Assembly (NCBI GenBank): GCA_902762615.1
Contig: CACWOX010000006.1
Location: forward strand, 1-64,000
Source of the DNA: an uncultured Ruminococcus sp.
GTDB taxonomy: Bacteria; Bacillota; Clostridia; Oscillospirales; Acutalibacteraceae
Reading direction: 5' to 3'
DNA: 64,000 nucleotides
How positions within the stretch are numbered: the stretch's first letter is position 1; each line of letters opens with the position of its first letter. Below, in pieces: positions 3,494-58,698 of the stretch. The position numbers and the translations under genes are program-made. Under the pieces are notes generated by a model, which ran no database searches, was not told the origin of the DNA, and saw only the letters and a list, made by a program, of their open reading frames with translations.

Positions 3494-6049
3494 GTGTACA
3501 TGCTATTTATTGCGGCAATTGTATGCCTTGCGGCGGTTTTCGCGGCAGTCTCTGCCATCAGCATTTTGATCGCTGATCTCCCCTATTGCCCCAATGATAA
3601 GAAAAAAGCCGTCCTGATCAAAACGGCGGTCTGGGCTTCGTGCCTGCTCTGCAACGCCGCGGCTCTGTACCTTGTGCATTTGATTTTCCGCGGCAACGGC
3701 GATATTATCAGGACGCTCAGGCTGACGGTGGAACGAAAGCTGAGTTATCAGTCCACCGAATACATCTACGGTTCGCTGCTGATTTGGATTCCCATTGCTG
3801 TCTCTGCCGGATTGGCAGTAAGATCCATCGTGCTTTCGCGTCTGGGCGAGGACAAGCCCTTTATCCCGCCGCAGACCCGTCGCTCGAAAAAGCTGCTCAT
3901 GGTCTTTGACGTCAGTCTGCTCGGAATTGCACTGATATCCTCCATCGCATTCTGCGCAGGCGGAGTACGTCACCTGAAGCTCACCGAGGTCTGCGATTCC
4001 AAGGTCGGCAGAGTCTCTGACGGCGGCTACATCGAGCTGCTCAATGAGGGAAGTTTCCCCTGCCGCACCGGAGGGCTTTATCTGAGCAACAGCGAGGAAA
4101 ATCTCAAAAAATACGCCCTTCCCGACAGCGTGGCAGGAGCCGGTGAGCTTCTGCTCATTCCGCTGGAAAACGACGTCTTTTCTCTGAGCAAATCGGGCGG
4201 CACTGTCGTGATACTCTCGGACGGCGGAGGGAGAATCATTGACAAGGTTGCGGTGGACAAGCAGCGCGACGGCATTTATTCCTACTGCCGCGTCGGAGCC
4301 ACCGGAAACTGGGAATACATGCACCCCACGCCGGGTGAAGCCAACGCCGCTTCCGCGGCTATCATACAAAATCCGGCATTCTCGGCGGCTGCCGGCTATT
4401 ACAGCGATCCCTTCGATCTGACCGTAACTGCCGGAGAAGGCGCCGAAATCCATTACACCACCGACGGCAGCACCCCGACCGCCGACTCTCCCGTCTACAA
4501 AAAGCCCATTCGTGTGACCGACAGGAGCAATGAGCCGAACAAACGGCGCTCATTGCAGAGGATCGTCTATGACTGGAAGAATTATCAGCCCGACACGACT
4601 CCTGTGAAAAAGGCGTTTGTGGTCAGAGCCGTCGCGATTGATTCCCAGGGCGCCATGAGCGAGGAGGTCTCGGCTTCCTATTTTATCGGAGAGAAATTCG
4701 ACAGTGACACGGCGGTGCTGTCCCTTGTCGCAGACGATGAGGCTCTCTTCGGCGAGGACGGCTTTTATATGACCGGCAAGACATACGACGAATGGTATCT
4801 TGCGGGCGGCACGGGCGACCAGCCTACCGCCAACTTCGACGTAAAGGGAACCGAATGCGGCGTTGCGGTCGAGTATTTCGCCAACGGCAAAAAGCTCACC
4901 TTCGCCCAGAGCGGCGGACTGAGAATTCAGGGCGGTTCCACACGCTGGCTGCCGCTCAAGCGCTTTTCGGTGTTCTCACGGAAGGAATACAGCGGACGCA
5001 GCACCTTTCCGGTGGAAATCTTCAAGGGAAAAGCCACCCATTCGGTGATGCTGCGAAGCGGGCTGGAAAACGCGCTGTGCATGTACACCGTACCCGACAG
5101 AGACGTCGCCGTGCTGCAAAGCGTCCCTGTGACGGTGTATCTCAACGGCGAATACTGGTACGACACCTTCATGCAGGAAAAGTACAACAACACCTACTTC
5201 CGTCAGACCTTCGGGGTGGACAATGTGGAGTTCCTGAAGGTCGGCATTACCGACGAAATCAAGTATTTCATTGACCATCACGACCTCTCGCAGGAGGCGG
5301 ATTACAAACGCTTTGATGAGATCATCGACATTCAGAGCTACATCGACTATATCTGCTCCAATGTCTACCTCGGCAACACCGACTACAACGAATACGCCAA
5401 TACCGCGATGTGGCGCACCGTTACCAAGGAAAACGATTCCTACGGCGACGGACGCTGGCGATGGGCTTTTTATGACATGGATCTTCAAACCGCGGGCTGC
5501 CGCTTCAATTACGGTCTGACCGATATCACCGACGCGCAGCTCGATACCTTCAACATCGTCTGCGACTGGGATCCGCCCGTCAATCAGCGCATTATTTACT
5601 CCGCGCTGAAGACAAATCCCGAATTTTGCAGGCAGTTCGTGCTCTCCATGATGGATATGATCAACAACGACTTCACCGAGCAGCGCATGTCCGACCTGCT
5701 GGCGCGATACGGCGAGGACATCAGCTGGCACGAATACTTCTTCCGCGACCGCCCCGACAATATGATCGAATTCACGGCAAAGGAATTCGGGCTGAAAAAC
5801 AGCACCGAAGAGCTGACCGTTACCGCCAACGACCCCACTGCCGGAAGCGTGAAGGTCAACACATCGGTGATCGACCTCGGCGAAGGCAGCTGGACCGGAA
5901 GATACTTCCGCGAATATCCCATAACCGTCACGGCTCTTCCCAATCCCGGCTTCCGATTCAAGGGCTGGTCTGACGGTACGACCGACGCGACGATTGAAAT
6001 TAACTTAAACGGAGGTGTTACAGCAAATGCGATTTTTGAAAAAGAATAA
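3494..6049 (+). CDS. Membrane-anchored CotH kinase family protein
   Basis: An 851-residue multidomain protein. Hydrophobic segments in the first 160 residues (about 3-25, 38-60, 95-115, 137-158) make a membrane anchor. Next come a lamin-tail-like beta domain (about 165-285, ESYIELLNEGSFPC type), a chitobiase C-terminal-type module (NPAFSAAAGYYSDPFDLTV; YTTDGSTPT), the CotH domain (about 440-760), and an InlB-like C-terminal repeat (FRFKGWSDGTTDATIEI). CotH proteins are atypical protein kinases. The metal-binding signature is seen as FYDMDLQTAG near residue 661 and the NTDYNEYANTAMWR loop near 630. The start is GTG 3494, or ATG 3500. It overlaps the next gene by 23 bp, implying coupled translation. 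The target is unknown; neighbours suggest an envelope role. Confidence 0.87.
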   Translation: MYMLFIAAIVCLAAVFAAVSAISILIADLPYCPNDKKKAVLIKTAVWASCLLCNAAALYLVHLIFRGNGDIIRTLRLTVERKLSYQSTEYIYGSLLIWIPIAVSAGLAVRSIVLSRLGEDKPFIPPQTRRSKKLLMVFDVSLLGIALISSIAFCAGGVRHLKLTEVCDSKVGRVSDGGYIELLNEGSFPCRTGGLYLSNSEENLKKYALPDSVAGAGELLLIPLENDVFSLSKSGGTVVILSDGGGRIIDKVAVDKQRDGIYSYCRVGATGNWEYMHPTPGEANAASAAIIQNPAFSAAAGYYSDPFDLTVTAGEGAEIHYTTDGSTPTADSPVYKKPIRVTDRSNEPNKRRSLQRIVYDWKNYQPDTTPVKKAFVVRAVAIDSQGAMSEEVSASYFIGEKFDSDTAVLSLVADDEALFGEDGFYMTGKTYDEWYLAGGTGDQPTANFDVKGTECGVAVEYFANGKKLTFAQSGGLRIQGGSTRWLPLKRFSVFSRKEYSGRSTFPVEIFKGKATHSVMLRSGLENALCMYTVPDRDVAVLQSVPVTVYLNGEYWYDTFMQEKYNNTYFRQTFGVDNVEFLKVGITDEIKYFIDHHDLSQEADYKRFDEIIDIQSYIDYICSNVYLGNTDYNEYANTAMWRTVTKENDSYGDGRWRWAFYDMDLQTAGCRFNYGLTDITDAQLDTFNIVCDWDPPVNQRIIYSALKTNPEFCRQFVLSMMDMINNDFTEQRMSDLLARYGEDISWHEYFFRDRPDNMIEFTAKEFGLKNSTEELTVTANDPTAGSVKVNTSVIDLGEGSWTGRYFREYPITVTALPNPGFRFKGWSDGTTDATIEINLNGGVTANAIFEKE

Positions 6050-6887
6050 GGCGGCAGCGCTTCTTGCGGCAATGGTATTTCTGACAGGCTGCCTCTCGGG
6101 CTGCTCCTTTTTACCCGAGGAATCAGACGCCGAAAGCGGCGGAACTTCCGTTAAGCCGGTCATCGAAATGACGCGCGAGGATCTTCGCACTTCGTCCGAC
6201 AACGCAAAGGCAATCAACCTCGGCACAGTCGGTGAGGAGCTGCTGATTACCGACGCGGGCGATTACCGTCTGAGCGGAGAGCTGAAAGGCTCCGTCACCA
6301 TTCAAGCCGAAGAGCAGATTGTGCATCTGTTCCTCGGCGGCGTGAATATCAAATCGGTCACGGCTCCCGCTATCAATGTGGAATCCGCCGGCAAAGTGAT
6401 CATTACCGCCGAACCCGGCAGCGAGAACAGCCTCGCCGACGGCAGCAAGTACATCAGCGATCTGCCCGACGGGTGTATATTCAGTATGTGCGACGTCACC
6501 CTCAACGGCAGCGGCAGCCTTTCCGTTTCGGGCTATTACAAGGACGCGATACACACGAAGGATTTCCTCAAGATCACCGGAGTGACCCTCTTCGCCCGGG
6601 CTAAGGACGACGGTCTTCACGGCAACGACGGCATTCTGATCAACGGCGCCGACGTCTCGGTGGAAGCCGAGAAAAACGGCATTCGCACCACCAAATCAGG
6701 CAAGGTTCGCAAGGGCAACATTGAAATCACCGACTCGAAGCTCTCGGTGATCGCCGGAGAGCATGCCCTGAATGCTTCGCGCAGCATTTATATGGCGTCC
6801 AGCAAGGCGTTTTTGAAGGGGGTCATGTCCAACAGCAAGGCGGAGCATGATATTTACATCGAGGAAGGTTGTCTGACCAATGGATAA
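6027..6887 (+). CDS. Cthe_2159-type carbohydrate-binding lipoprotein
   Basis: A 286-residue lipoprotein. The start at 6027 has GGAGGTG 8 nt upstream, inside the cotH gene. The signal peptide carries the lipobox LSGC. The mature protein matches the Cthe_2159 family (PF14262), a beta-helix fold known to bind cellulose and pectin-like acidic polysaccharide with bound calcium. The family pattern is seen as INLGTVGEELLITDAGDYRLSG, IHLFLGGVNIKS, GSKYISDLPDGCIFSMCDVTLNGSGSLSV, KDDGLHGNDGILINGADVSV and EKNGIRTTKSG. It is shorter than many members and ends soon after the helix. It overlaps both neighbours, placing it in a fixed operon with CotH and VTC genes. Confidence 0.85.
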   Translation: MRFLKKNKAAALLAAMVFLTGCLSGCSFLPEESDAESGGTSVKPVIEMTREDLRTSSDNAKAINLGTVGEELLITDAGDYRLSGELKGSVTIQAEEQIVHLFLGGVNIKSVTAPAINVESAGKVIITAEPGSENSLADGSKYISDLPDGCIFSMCDVTLNGSGSLSVSGYYKDAIHTKDFLKITGVTLFARAKDDGLHGNDGILINGADVSVEAEKNGIRTTKSGKVRKGNIEITDSKLSVIAGEHALNASRSIYMASSKAFLKGVMSNSKAEHDIYIEEGCLTNG

Positions 6888-7572
6888 ATACAGACACGAA
6901 TACAAATATTACATTGATTCGGGACAGCGCCGGATTCTTCTGATGAAGGCGAAGGCTTTGATGCGCCGCGACTCCAACGCCGGAAATGACGGCTGCTACG
7001 TCATTCGCAGCCTGTATTTTGACGACGCAGACAACACCTGCTTCTATCAGAATGAAGCCGGCTGCGACCCGCGTGCAAAATACCGCATTCGCTTCTACAA
7101 CGAGGACACTTCCTTCATCCGGCTTGAAAAAAAGAGCAAGCGCCGCGGCATGACACTGAAACACTCCTGCCGGCTGACGCGGGAGGAAGCCGGCATTCTC
7201 GCTTCCGGCAGCTTTCCCGCTGTTAACGCCGAAATGCCGGAACAAAAGCGCTTGCTCCTTGCCCAGATGCAGCTTCACGGACTCAAGCCAAAGGTGATCG
7301 TGACATACAGCCGTATTCCCTTTATTTATCCCGCGGGAAACGTGCGTATCACATTTGACTCAGACATCACCTCTTCGGACGAAACAGACAGATTTTTGTC
7401 CTGCGATTACCGTCAGCGTCCGGTGCTCCCCATTGGCAGGAGCATTCTGGAAGTCAAGTGGGACGAACTGCTGCCGCTTCACATCAAGGGCATGATGCAG
7501 CTCAACACCTTACAGTGGAGCACATTCTCAAAATATTACACATGCAGGCTTATCAATTTAGGAGGTTTTTAA
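6880..7572 (+). CDS. Polyphosphate polymerase (VTC) domain protein
   Basis: A 230-residue protein that is essentially a bare VTC catalytic domain (PF09359), the tunnel-shaped fold that makes polyphosphate from ATP in yeast Vtc4. Basic tunnel residues are visible: RHEYKYYI at the N-terminus, SLYFDD, YRIRFYN (two Arg), IRLEKKSKRR, VRITFDSDI, ILEVKWDE (acidic metal ligand) and a terminal FSKYYTC Lys. No SPX or membrane domain is present, so any membrane coupling would come from the DUF4956 protein encoded 6 bp downstream. It overlaps the previous gene by 8 bp. Activity is inferred; a triphosphatase/CYTH-type activity is the main alternative. Confidence 0.87.
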   Translation: MDKYRHEYKYYIDSGQRRILLMKAKALMRRDSNAGNDGCYVIRSLYFDDADNTCFYQNEAGCDPRAKYRIRFYNEDTSFIRLEKKSKRRGMTLKHSCRLTREEAGILASGSFPAVNAEMPEQKRLLLAQMQLHGLKPKVIVTYSRIPFIYPAGNVRITFDSDITSSDETDRFLSCDYRQRPVLPIGRSILEVKWDELLPLHIKGMMQLNTLQWSTFSKYYTCRLINLGGF

Positions 7573-26169: not shown

Positions 26170-26263
26170 GTGAATAACAAATAGTGAATAATGTCGGAAG
26201 CGCGGCAGCGCTTGGAATAAGGAATGAAGTTATCAACTTCACACTTCACACTTCACATTTCAC
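26170..26263 (+). repeat. Heptamer arrays and hairpin, hrcA-grpE spacer
   Basis: Two 7-bp arrays: GTGAATA-type (26170-26190) and ACTTCAC x3 plus ATTTCAC (26236-26263). Between them lies ATGTCGGAAG followed by a GCGC-rich hairpin (26199-26213). The same modules recur at 28896, 42750 and 43130. Confidence 0.8.
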
Positions 26264-26288
26264 ACTAAATAGAAAGGAGCTGCTGATC

Positions 26289-35097: not shown

Positions 35098-35126
35098 TTG
35101 ACACAGATTCTGGTTTATGATATCAT
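35098..35126 (+). promoter_or_regulatory. Sigma-A-type promoter
   Basis: TTGACA (35098-35103), 17-bp spacer, TATCAT (35121-35126), 36 bp before the ATG at 35163. Confidence 0.65.
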
Positions 35127-35162: not shown

Positions 35163-35678
35163 ATGGGTTCCAACCGCAAAATCAAAACCATCGTGGACAT
35201 GATGTTCGACGATATTCCCTATTCGGAAGGCGTGGAAGAGGCGCAGGCTAAAATTGAAGCCGCGCTCAATGCCGAATTCGACAAGCTGTCCGATGGCAGA
35301 CACGAGGACGAGGCGCTCGAAGAGCTTTTAGGCAGCTACGGCAGGCTCTCGCAGATGGCGCAGCTTGCCGGATATCCCGCCGACAGTGCGGCTCAGTGGC
35401 GCAGTGAGGGCGAGGCGGTCGATATCCGTCCCCTTAAAAAGGAGCTTTGGAAGCAGCGGAGGCGTGTGTACATATCCGCGGCATTCTGCGTGTTTGCGCT
35501 TTTGCAGCTGATGTGGGTGATTTACAATCTCACTGTCAATCCCCTCTACTCTCTCGCCAATGCCCTTTACGCGGCGATTGATCTGCTGATTGCCTTTTTC
35601 CCGTTCAGAAATTATCTCAGAACAGAAAAAGCCGCCTCCGACAGCAAGTACGACACTGAGGCTTACCAATATCTGTGA
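35163..35678 (+). CDS. N-terminal part of a TGA-split membrane protein
   Basis: A 171-codon frame with a cytosolic N-terminal domain of about 100 residues (helical, resembling the permease-prefix/DUF1700-like domain) and two membrane segments (VYISAAFCVFALLQLMWVIY; LYSLANALYAAIDLLIAFF). It ends at a single TGA (35676-35678). The same reading frame then continues without a further stop to 37256, straight into a membrane helix and a metallophosphoesterase domain. The first 54 codons after the TGA contain no ATG, GTG or TTG, so the downstream helix has no ordinary start of its own. A nonsense mutation, read-through, or two separate proteins are the options. Confidence 0.65.
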   Translation: MGSNRKIKTIVDMMFDDIPYSEGVEEAQAKIEAALNAEFDKLSDGRHEDEALEELLGSYGRLSQMAQLAGYPADSAAQWRSEGEAVDIRPLKKELWKQRRRVYISAAFCVFALLQLMWVIYNLTVNPLYSLANALYAAIDLLIAFFPFRNYLRTEKAASDSKYDTEAYQYL

Positions 35679-35840
35679 AGCCTGAGCGACAAATATGCCA
35701 AGCGGCTGCTCAACAGCATCGCTCTGTTATTTGTCATTCTGTTCGTTTTCGTCGCGTCGGAGCTGAGCTTTTTCTTCTTCGGCAACTCCAAGGCGGCGGA
35801 GCTTTCCGAAAACTTCCTCAATAACGGCGCATTTGTCGAA

Positions 35841-37256
35841 TTGCCTGTTTTTCTGCTGCTGAAAAATAGTCTCTGCTGTCTCATCTTCCAGAAACGCATC
35901 AAAATGCCTGACAGGCAATTGTTCACAAAACATATCATCGGCATGACGGCATTCTCGGCGGTGTATTGGCTGGGCGTTACCGCGCTGACTGTGATCATGA
36001 GCGGCTCCATCAGCTATCCTGCCAATGTGTTTCTTATGGCGGGCGTTATATTCGGGCTGCTGATTCTGATTTATAATTTCACACTCAGAAAAACCGTCAC
36101 CTATCGCAACGTCGTATTCAATATTCCGAGAATCGCGGCATTTACTGCCGTCTCGGTGTTCATTTCGGGCTTCGGCATCATGCAGCGTGACACCTGGTAC
36201 ACCCAGAGCTACATCAATTCCGTGCCGGTCGTGGAGCACAACACTCACCAAATCGAATACAACGACGATACGGGCATTTACACCATTACCTCCTCCACCG
36301 AGGATTTCAAGATACTGCACCTCACCGATATTCACATCGGCGGCAGCATTTACTCCTACAGCAAGGACCTGAAGGCTTTGAAGGCATGCTATGCCGAGAT
36401 CGAGCACACGCACCCCGATCTGGTGATCGTCACGGGCGATATGAGCTTCCCGCTCGGCATTATGTCGCTCTCGCTCAACAACACCGCGCCTGTCGGTCAG
36501 TTCGCGGCATTCATGCGCAACACGGGCATTCCGTGGGCGTTCACCTACGGCAATCACGACACCGAAATGCTCGCCTCCGCCGGAAAGCAGGAGCTCAACG
36601 ACGTTTACAAGTCGCTCTCCTTCAAGACCTCCGGCAACCTGCTGTATCCCTACAAACAGCCCGACGTGACAGGCAGAAACAATCAGCTCATCGAGCTTAG
36701 AAACGCCGACGGCAGCCTGAACACCGGTCTCTTTATGATCGACTCCAACGCCTATACCGGCGAGGGCATCAATGTGTACGACTACATTCACGACGATCAG
36801 GTGGACTGGTACGCCGGTGAAGTCAGGCGCATGGAAGCCGAAGCCGGACACACCGTCAATTCCTTCTGCTTCTTCCACATTCCGCTGCAGGAATACCTCA
36901 CCGCTACCAAGCTCTACATGGAGGGCAGCGACGAAGTCAAGCATTTCTTCGGGGAAAATCCCGGCGATCACGGCGGCATTACCAACGACACCGTCTGCTG
37001 CTCCGATTATCCCAGCAAGCTCTTCGATACCGCTCTGGAACTGGGCAGCACGACGGGCTTCTTCTGCGGACACGACCACTACAACAACGCCTCCCTCGAA
37101 TACAAGGGCATTCGCCTAACCTACGGCATGAGCATTGACTACCTCGCCATGCCCGGCATTGAGAGGGAAACCAAACAGCGCGGCGCGGAGCTTATCACCA
37201 TTCATGCCGACAGCTCGTGGGATGTAGAGCAGATCCCCCTCACCTCGATCACGTAA
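35841..37256 (+). CDS. Membrane metallophosphoesterase (C-terminal part of split frame)
   Basis: A calcineurin-like phosphoesterase of 471 residues from the first ordinary in-frame start (TTG 35841, without a good ribosome site; ATG 35904 also possible). The open frame actually begins right after the TGA at 35676-35678 and encodes one more helix (LLNSIALLFVILFVFVASELSFFFF). Three further membrane segments follow, then the external enzyme domain with all metal motifs: ILHLTDIHIGG, VIVTGDMSF, TYGNHDTE, FCFFHIPLQE and FFCGHDHYNN. The domain is intact, so activity is plausible if the protein is made. The substrate is unknown (nucleotide, lipid or wall phosphoester). Confidence 0.75.
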   Translation: MPVFLLLKNSLCCLIFQKRIKMPDRQLFTKHIIGMTAFSAVYWLGVTALTVIMSGSISYPANVFLMAGVIFGLLILIYNFTLRKTVTYRNVVFNIPRIAAFTAVSVFISGFGIMQRDTWYTQSYINSVPVVEHNTHQIEYNDDTGIYTITSSTEDFKILHLTDIHIGGSIYSYSKDLKALKACYAEIEHTHPDLVIVTGDMSFPLGIMSLSLNNTAPVGQFAAFMRNTGIPWAFTYGNHDTEMLASAGKQELNDVYKSLSFKTSGNLLYPYKQPDVTGRNNQLIELRNADGSLNTGLFMIDSNAYTGEGINVYDYIHDDQVDWYAGEVRRMEAEAGHTVNSFCFFHIPLQEYLTATKLYMEGSDEVKHFFGENPGDHGGITNDTVCCSDYPSKLFDTALELGSTTGFFCGHDHYNNASLEYKGIRLTYGMSIDYLAMPGIERETKQRGAELITIHADSSWDVEQIPLTSIT

Positions 37257-37260
37257 TAAT

Positions 37261-37427
37261 GTGAAGTGTGAAGTGTGAAGTGTGAAATGTGAAAATTAAT
37301 TAAACAAGCGCGGTCGTGATTAAGAAGGTCACAAACCGCGCTTGTTTTTAAGTTTTATTTCATAACGTGTCTAAAGTCAAGAAATGGAATGTAGATTTAA
37401 AAAACTTCACACTTCACATTTCACACT
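37261..37427. repeat. Inverted ACTTCAC heptamer arrays flanking a terminator
   Basis: GTGAAGT x3, GTGAAAT, GTGAAAA (37261-37295) on one side and ACTTCAC x2, ATTTCAC (37404-37424) on the other, the reverse complement of the first. They flank the terminator 37303-37350 in a convergent intergenic region. Confidence 0.85.
37303..37350 (+). terminator. Terminator between metallophosphoesterase and metY
   Basis: AACAAGCGCGGT (37303-37314) pairs with ACCGCGCTTGTT (37335-37346), then TTTAAG. The 3' arm with its TCACAA prefix recurs in the terminator at 58557. Confidence 0.8.
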
Positions 37428-58653: not shown

Positions 58654-58698
58654 ACTCCACACTTCACACTTCACACTTCACACTCCACACTTCACACT
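58654..58698. repeat. ACTTCAC/ACTCCAC heptamer array
   Basis: Six 7-bp units ACTCCAC, ACTTCAC x3, ACTCCAC, ACTTCAC (58654-58695) between the recA-operon terminator and the 3' end of argJ; two further TTCACACTTT pieces follow to about 58722. The remaining spacer shows nothing else. Confidence 0.85.

Follow-up and report, generated by a model that had tools for sequence, protein, structure and literature searches.

A recent nonsense mutation has probably cut an accessory gene for a membrane metallophosphoesterase in an uncultured Ruminococcus sp. The break lies in what is here called the window, the whole stretch of 64,000 nucleotides that was analysed (positions 1 to 64,000 of contig CACWOX010000006.1). 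Translation of positions 35163-37259 gave a frame running from an ATG at 35163 to a TAA at 37254-37256, in which the TGA at 35676-35678, codon 172 of 697, was the sole internal stop. Neither a second stop nor a frameshift was found elsewhere in the 697 codons, and a TAA TAA tandem at 37254-37259 closes the split gene. The features of the locus are as follows.

35098..35126, + strand: putative promoter-like site 5' of the split gene, TTGACA-17-TATCAT, the second hexamer preceded by TG, 11/12 matches to the consensus
35163..35675, + strand: upstream part of 171 codons, a helical N-terminal region and the first predicted long (membrane) helices, from translation, homology and the model; no Pfam match
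35676..35678, + strand: in-frame TGA, from translation; a sense codon in 58/58 aligned relatives
35679..37256, + strand: downstream part ending in TAA, with a calcineurin-like metallophosphoesterase domain whose motifs are intact and with more predicted membrane helices, from PF00149, invariant columns and the model
37260..37294, + strand: TGTGAAG heptamer array directly 3' of the split gene, from a repeat scan
37404..37427, - strand: second array of the heptamer, inverted, where the neighbouring gene ends, from a repeat scan

Past the TGA, the 54 codons from 173 to 226 hold no start; the next in-frame one is a TTG at 35841 (codon 227), and the earliest in-frame ATG lies at 35904. Among the 14 starts listed within ~240 codons past the TGA, the preceding match to AGGAGG reached 4/6 at most. 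An initial annotation, which had described a frame from 35163 interrupted by this single TGA, 54 following codons free of ATG, GTG or TTG, and no ribosome site near the later starts, was thus borne out on all three points. In the organism, ribosomes would start at ATG 35163 and halt at codon 172, yielding a 171-residue protein devoid of the catalytic domain, and since the catalytic part lacks a good separate start, it would be made at most in traces through ordinary leaky decoding of UGA. The stop is presumably real in the organism and the phosphoesterase effectively lost. The case means little in itself and serves rather as a caution for annotation, since automatic gene calling would yield two proteins, one of 171 aa and one of ~471 aa from the poor TTG start, in place of a single broken or mis-read gene.

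The downstream half matched PF00149 with an E value of 3.5e-10 and 41.1 bits against a cut-off of 21.5, and holds all of the metal-binding motifs of that type, which we take to be D-x-H, GD, GNH(D/E), H and GHxH. The corresponding residues D389/H391, D426, N464/H465, H572 and H637/H639 were invariant across the 36 rows of the alignment. For the upstream half, searches returned nothing in Pfam and nothing convincing in NCBIfam, so that the label of a 'sensor-like domain' given to it previously finds no Pfam family match to support it; this half presumably resembles domains of the HAAS/DUF1700 type. As searched here, the gene family has no name in Pfam or NCBIfam beyond PF00149. The predicted model of the read-through protein had a mean pLDDT of 85.5 and placed codon 172 within a single long helix of residues 165-206. 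As this helix spans the TGA, it does not begin after it, contrary to the initial annotation, which had a membrane helix encoded downstream of the stop. With Foldseek, the nearest solved folds were Mre11 and SMPDL3A-type phosphoesterases, although these matches were weak (query TM 0.21-0.28 among the top 14), and a sequence search of the PDB found no chain matching at E 0.01. The split gene is like the calcineurin-like phosphoesterases of PF00149 in its profile match and nearest structural neighbours, but adds a large membrane N-terminal part and resembles the solved structures only weakly.

Relatives of the split gene were collected by scanning a species-genome collection with the downstream half, which left 80 loci, 58 of which were aligned; the other 22 were omitted as partial matches, at contig edges or visibly broken. 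In every one of the 58 aligned relatives the column of the TGA holds a sense codon, with Arg in 36, Cys in six, Glu in five, Lys in three, Gln and Thr in two each, and Leu, Asp, Phe and Ile in one each, so that apart from the predominance of Arg the column is variable. Homology to this set resumes within five residues past the TGA and continues to the C-terminus, and the N half shows homology to the N-terminal parts of the same relatives. Judged by this homology, the split frame is not a chance open frame. In 45 of the 58 (among them L081, which has no recognisable N half) the frame runs unbroken from stop to stop for 680 codons or more. The remaining 13 had shorter frames: a TAG interrupts one (L062), and in several others the N-terminal part is shorter. 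The distant members L104, L107 and L109 start close to the enzyme domain. The fused homologues of ~700 residues that the initial annotation had proposed to look for therefore exist in many relatives, and the arrangement that it had named as contradicting a single gene, two separate conserved genes, occurs in none of the 58. Two separate genes were accordingly rejected as an account of the locus, since the homology runs on through the stop, as does the predicted helix.

The nearest known counterpart is the intact membrane metallophosphoesterase of Ruminococcus flavefaciens and relatives (L034-L056 and others), which has an identical architecture from end to end and whose closest full-length aligned members are 76-77% identical to the split gene. 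It differs in being uncut, with no stop at the TGA column. No literature was found for the combination of Ruminococcus flavefaciens and metallophosphoesterase, and scanning viral contigs turned up no relative.

Presence of the gene in the genus is sporadic. We searched 18 genomes, that of the window and 17 congeners. An intact copy was found in none of the 17 congeners and 16 of them, 76-98% complete, were without any match, while the other (G009) carries only a C-terminal remnant of 76 residues in a different neighbourhood. In four congeners (G005, G007, G013 and G015) the neighbouring genes for MetB and an ABC ATPase lie ~200-420 bases apart with the gene absent, an empty locus that fits either a gain in the lineage of the window or a loss in the others. 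On these comparisons the phosphoesterase gene is dispensable in the genus, and accessory, and a young break would be tolerated because of this dispensability.

Breakage has also occurred repeatedly in relatives, at least ten of the 80 fetched loci being broken copies, some of which may be assembly faults. In Lachnospiraceae bacterium MD308 (L062, about 5440-7557) a single, independent in-frame TAG lies ~20 codons upstream of the site of the window TGA, and in four further loci (L041, L060, L083 and L113) the gene is broken by a frameshift or a deletion. Only the C-terminal ~264 residues are left in four Ruminococcus-type genomes (L095, L096, L097 and L102), which have a common breakpoint at residue 262 of the downstream half with identical sequence immediately upstream of it; as the breakpoint is shared, these probably go back to one event, and L102 has an additional frameshift. 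A second copy of the gene in R. flavefaciens FD-1 (L110) is truncated at residue 21 of the downstream half. Unrelated-looking sequence precedes this cut copy upstream of position 6001 of that locus, possibly an artefact of assembly or cloning.

The coding sequence on both sides of the TGA has been kept much as in intact relatives. In comparisons with intact relatives, the window had a median pN/pS of 0.305 for the N half (20 relatives) and 0.189 for the C half (21 relatives); among the relatives themselves, using only pairs with pS >0.3, the medians were 0.338 (190 pairs computed) and 0.192 (210 pairs computed), respectively. Many per-sequence C-half medians of close relatives (0.09-0.17) are below the 0.19 of the window and synonymous sites are near saturation, so that these figures would neither rule in nor rule out a mild relaxation of constraint in the window and would exclude only a long-standing loss. 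Since 220 of the 6264 possible single changes in the gene create a stop and no extra stop is present, our own arithmetic, which considers stops only, puts the unconstrained time roughly below ~0.04 neutral changes per site. Taken together, the lack of any other lesion, the intact motifs and the relative-like pN/pS indicate that the stop is either young or an error. Of the signs by which nonsense pseudogenes are recognised, the gene shows one, a stop in frame at a codon that is sense in orthologues. The others, relaxed constraint and further lesions, were not seen, in keeping with a break that is very young or with an error. As nothing else has decayed, a nonsense stop here would be young, probably within-species in scale. 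According to PMC7918605, in-frame stops occur widely in bacteria and for the most part do not last long, their time scale being that of population polymorphism. The stops treated there by Belinky et al. (2021) are likewise single, with conserved gene sequence on both sides, but that set required stops common to at least two species, whereas the window stop was seen in one genome only.

The initial annotation had left nonsense mutation, sequence error, read-through and reassignment of UGA side by side while leaning against reassignment, and this list is supported here, with nonsense mutation favoured and reassignment unlikely. Against the favoured reading, conservation without another lesion is equally expected from a sequence error or from functional read-through, and these come after a young nonsense mutation in that order. 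If the TGA were a base-call or assembly artefact, the gene of the organism would be intact, which the draft state of the genome (83 contigs), the lack of any other lesion and a conservation like that of intact relatives would all allow. There is no direct evidence of such an error, however, and errors of substitution in assembled contigs are rarer than indel errors. A real lesion is moreover plausible because breakage of the gene, including the TAG of Lachnospiraceae bacterium MD308, is common in relatives, and we consider an error unlikely. Somewhat less likely still is a tolerated or even useful leaky read-through, by which a near-cognate tRNA would read the UGA at a few percent and supply a little full-length phosphoesterase. 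The column tolerates many residues, and the base following the TGA is A and not the U that PMC5289835 associates with strong termination. Read-through of UGA in a reporter in Bacillus subtilis is given as 6% in a work cited in PMC7918605. A hairpin of -18.2 kcal/mol is predicted 12 bases after the start of the TGA, but its z of -1.75 is unremarkable and only 1 of 25 relatives folds as stably, with the shape not kept; a conserved stimulatory hairpin is therefore unsupported. A stop shared at the same column, by which programmed read-through would be recognised, was found in 0 of the 58 relatives, and as the independent stop of Lachnospiraceae bacterium MD308 is a TAG, the two have no common UGA signal. 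Were full-length protein detected, tolerated UGA read-through could be tested on a native gene of a gut Clostridia relative. Decidedly improbable, in our estimate, is an extension of this idea in which the family would repeatedly acquire stops between its membrane N-terminal part and its enzyme, such as the TGA of the window and the TAG ~20 codons upstream in Lachnospiraceae bacterium MD308. Each stop would then serve as a reversible dimmer: a little full-length phosphoesterase would still be made by leaky decoding until a later mutation removed the stop, and the gene would thereby switch between high and low expression across strains.

To selenocysteine insertion or reassignment of UGA in this genome we give hardly any weight. 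Cysteine opposite a UGA is the usual pattern at selenocysteine sites and occurs at this column in 6 of the 58 relatives, but Arg dominates (36 of 58). Neither SelB (best 174 bits against a cut-off of 242) nor tRNA-Sec (cut-off 47 bits) was found above cut-off in the assembly, which is 95.9% complete, and selenocysteine is unlikely on these grounds. The tRNA-Sec candidates fall on genes of ordinary tRNAs (Ser, Gly, Tyr, Leu and His), and the best of them, on a tRNA-Ser gene, scores 44.8 bits. As to a SECIS element after the UGA, the predicted hairpin is matched in stability by 1 of 25 relatives, and they do not retain its shape. Reassignment (code 4) is countered by the presence of RF2 (prfB, 531 bits against a cut-off of 370), by the lack of a UCA anticodon among the 41 of 42 tRNA matches that ARAGORN identified, and by the DnaJ, MetB and CysK genes of the window, which end in TGA and uphold the earlier argument from TGA stops elsewhere in the window. 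We also scanned 464 kb of the genome (the window and 20 stretches of 20 kb) for same-frame pairs split by a stop and obtained 106 loosely defined cases, of which many are probably shadow frames. Four of these combine a start-free run of 50 codons or more with 300 or more open codons on the downstream side, their stops being TAA, TGA, TAA and the TGA of the split gene, and on this count there appears to be no clear excess of TGA among split frames.

Several minor observations were made alongside. A tRNA-Trp was absent among the 42 tRNA matches in the 95.9% complete assembly, probably an assembly gap; the anticodon stem of this tRNA is the device reported in PMC13092985. One MetB match, in the congener G012 (L225), was returned with one internal TGA. 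On contig 42 of the same genome as the window, a membrane-type protein of 256 residues (L213, 1906-2676) resembles the N half (23% identity, E 6.8e-5) and is without the enzyme; it had no Pfam match above cut-off. Tandem arrays of the TGTGAAG heptamer occur at four places in the 64 kb window (26237-26264, 37260-37294, 37404-37427 and 58655-58696), against one in the other 400 kb sampled, and the inverted pair at 37260-37294 and 37404-37427 flanks a terminator-like region after the split gene.
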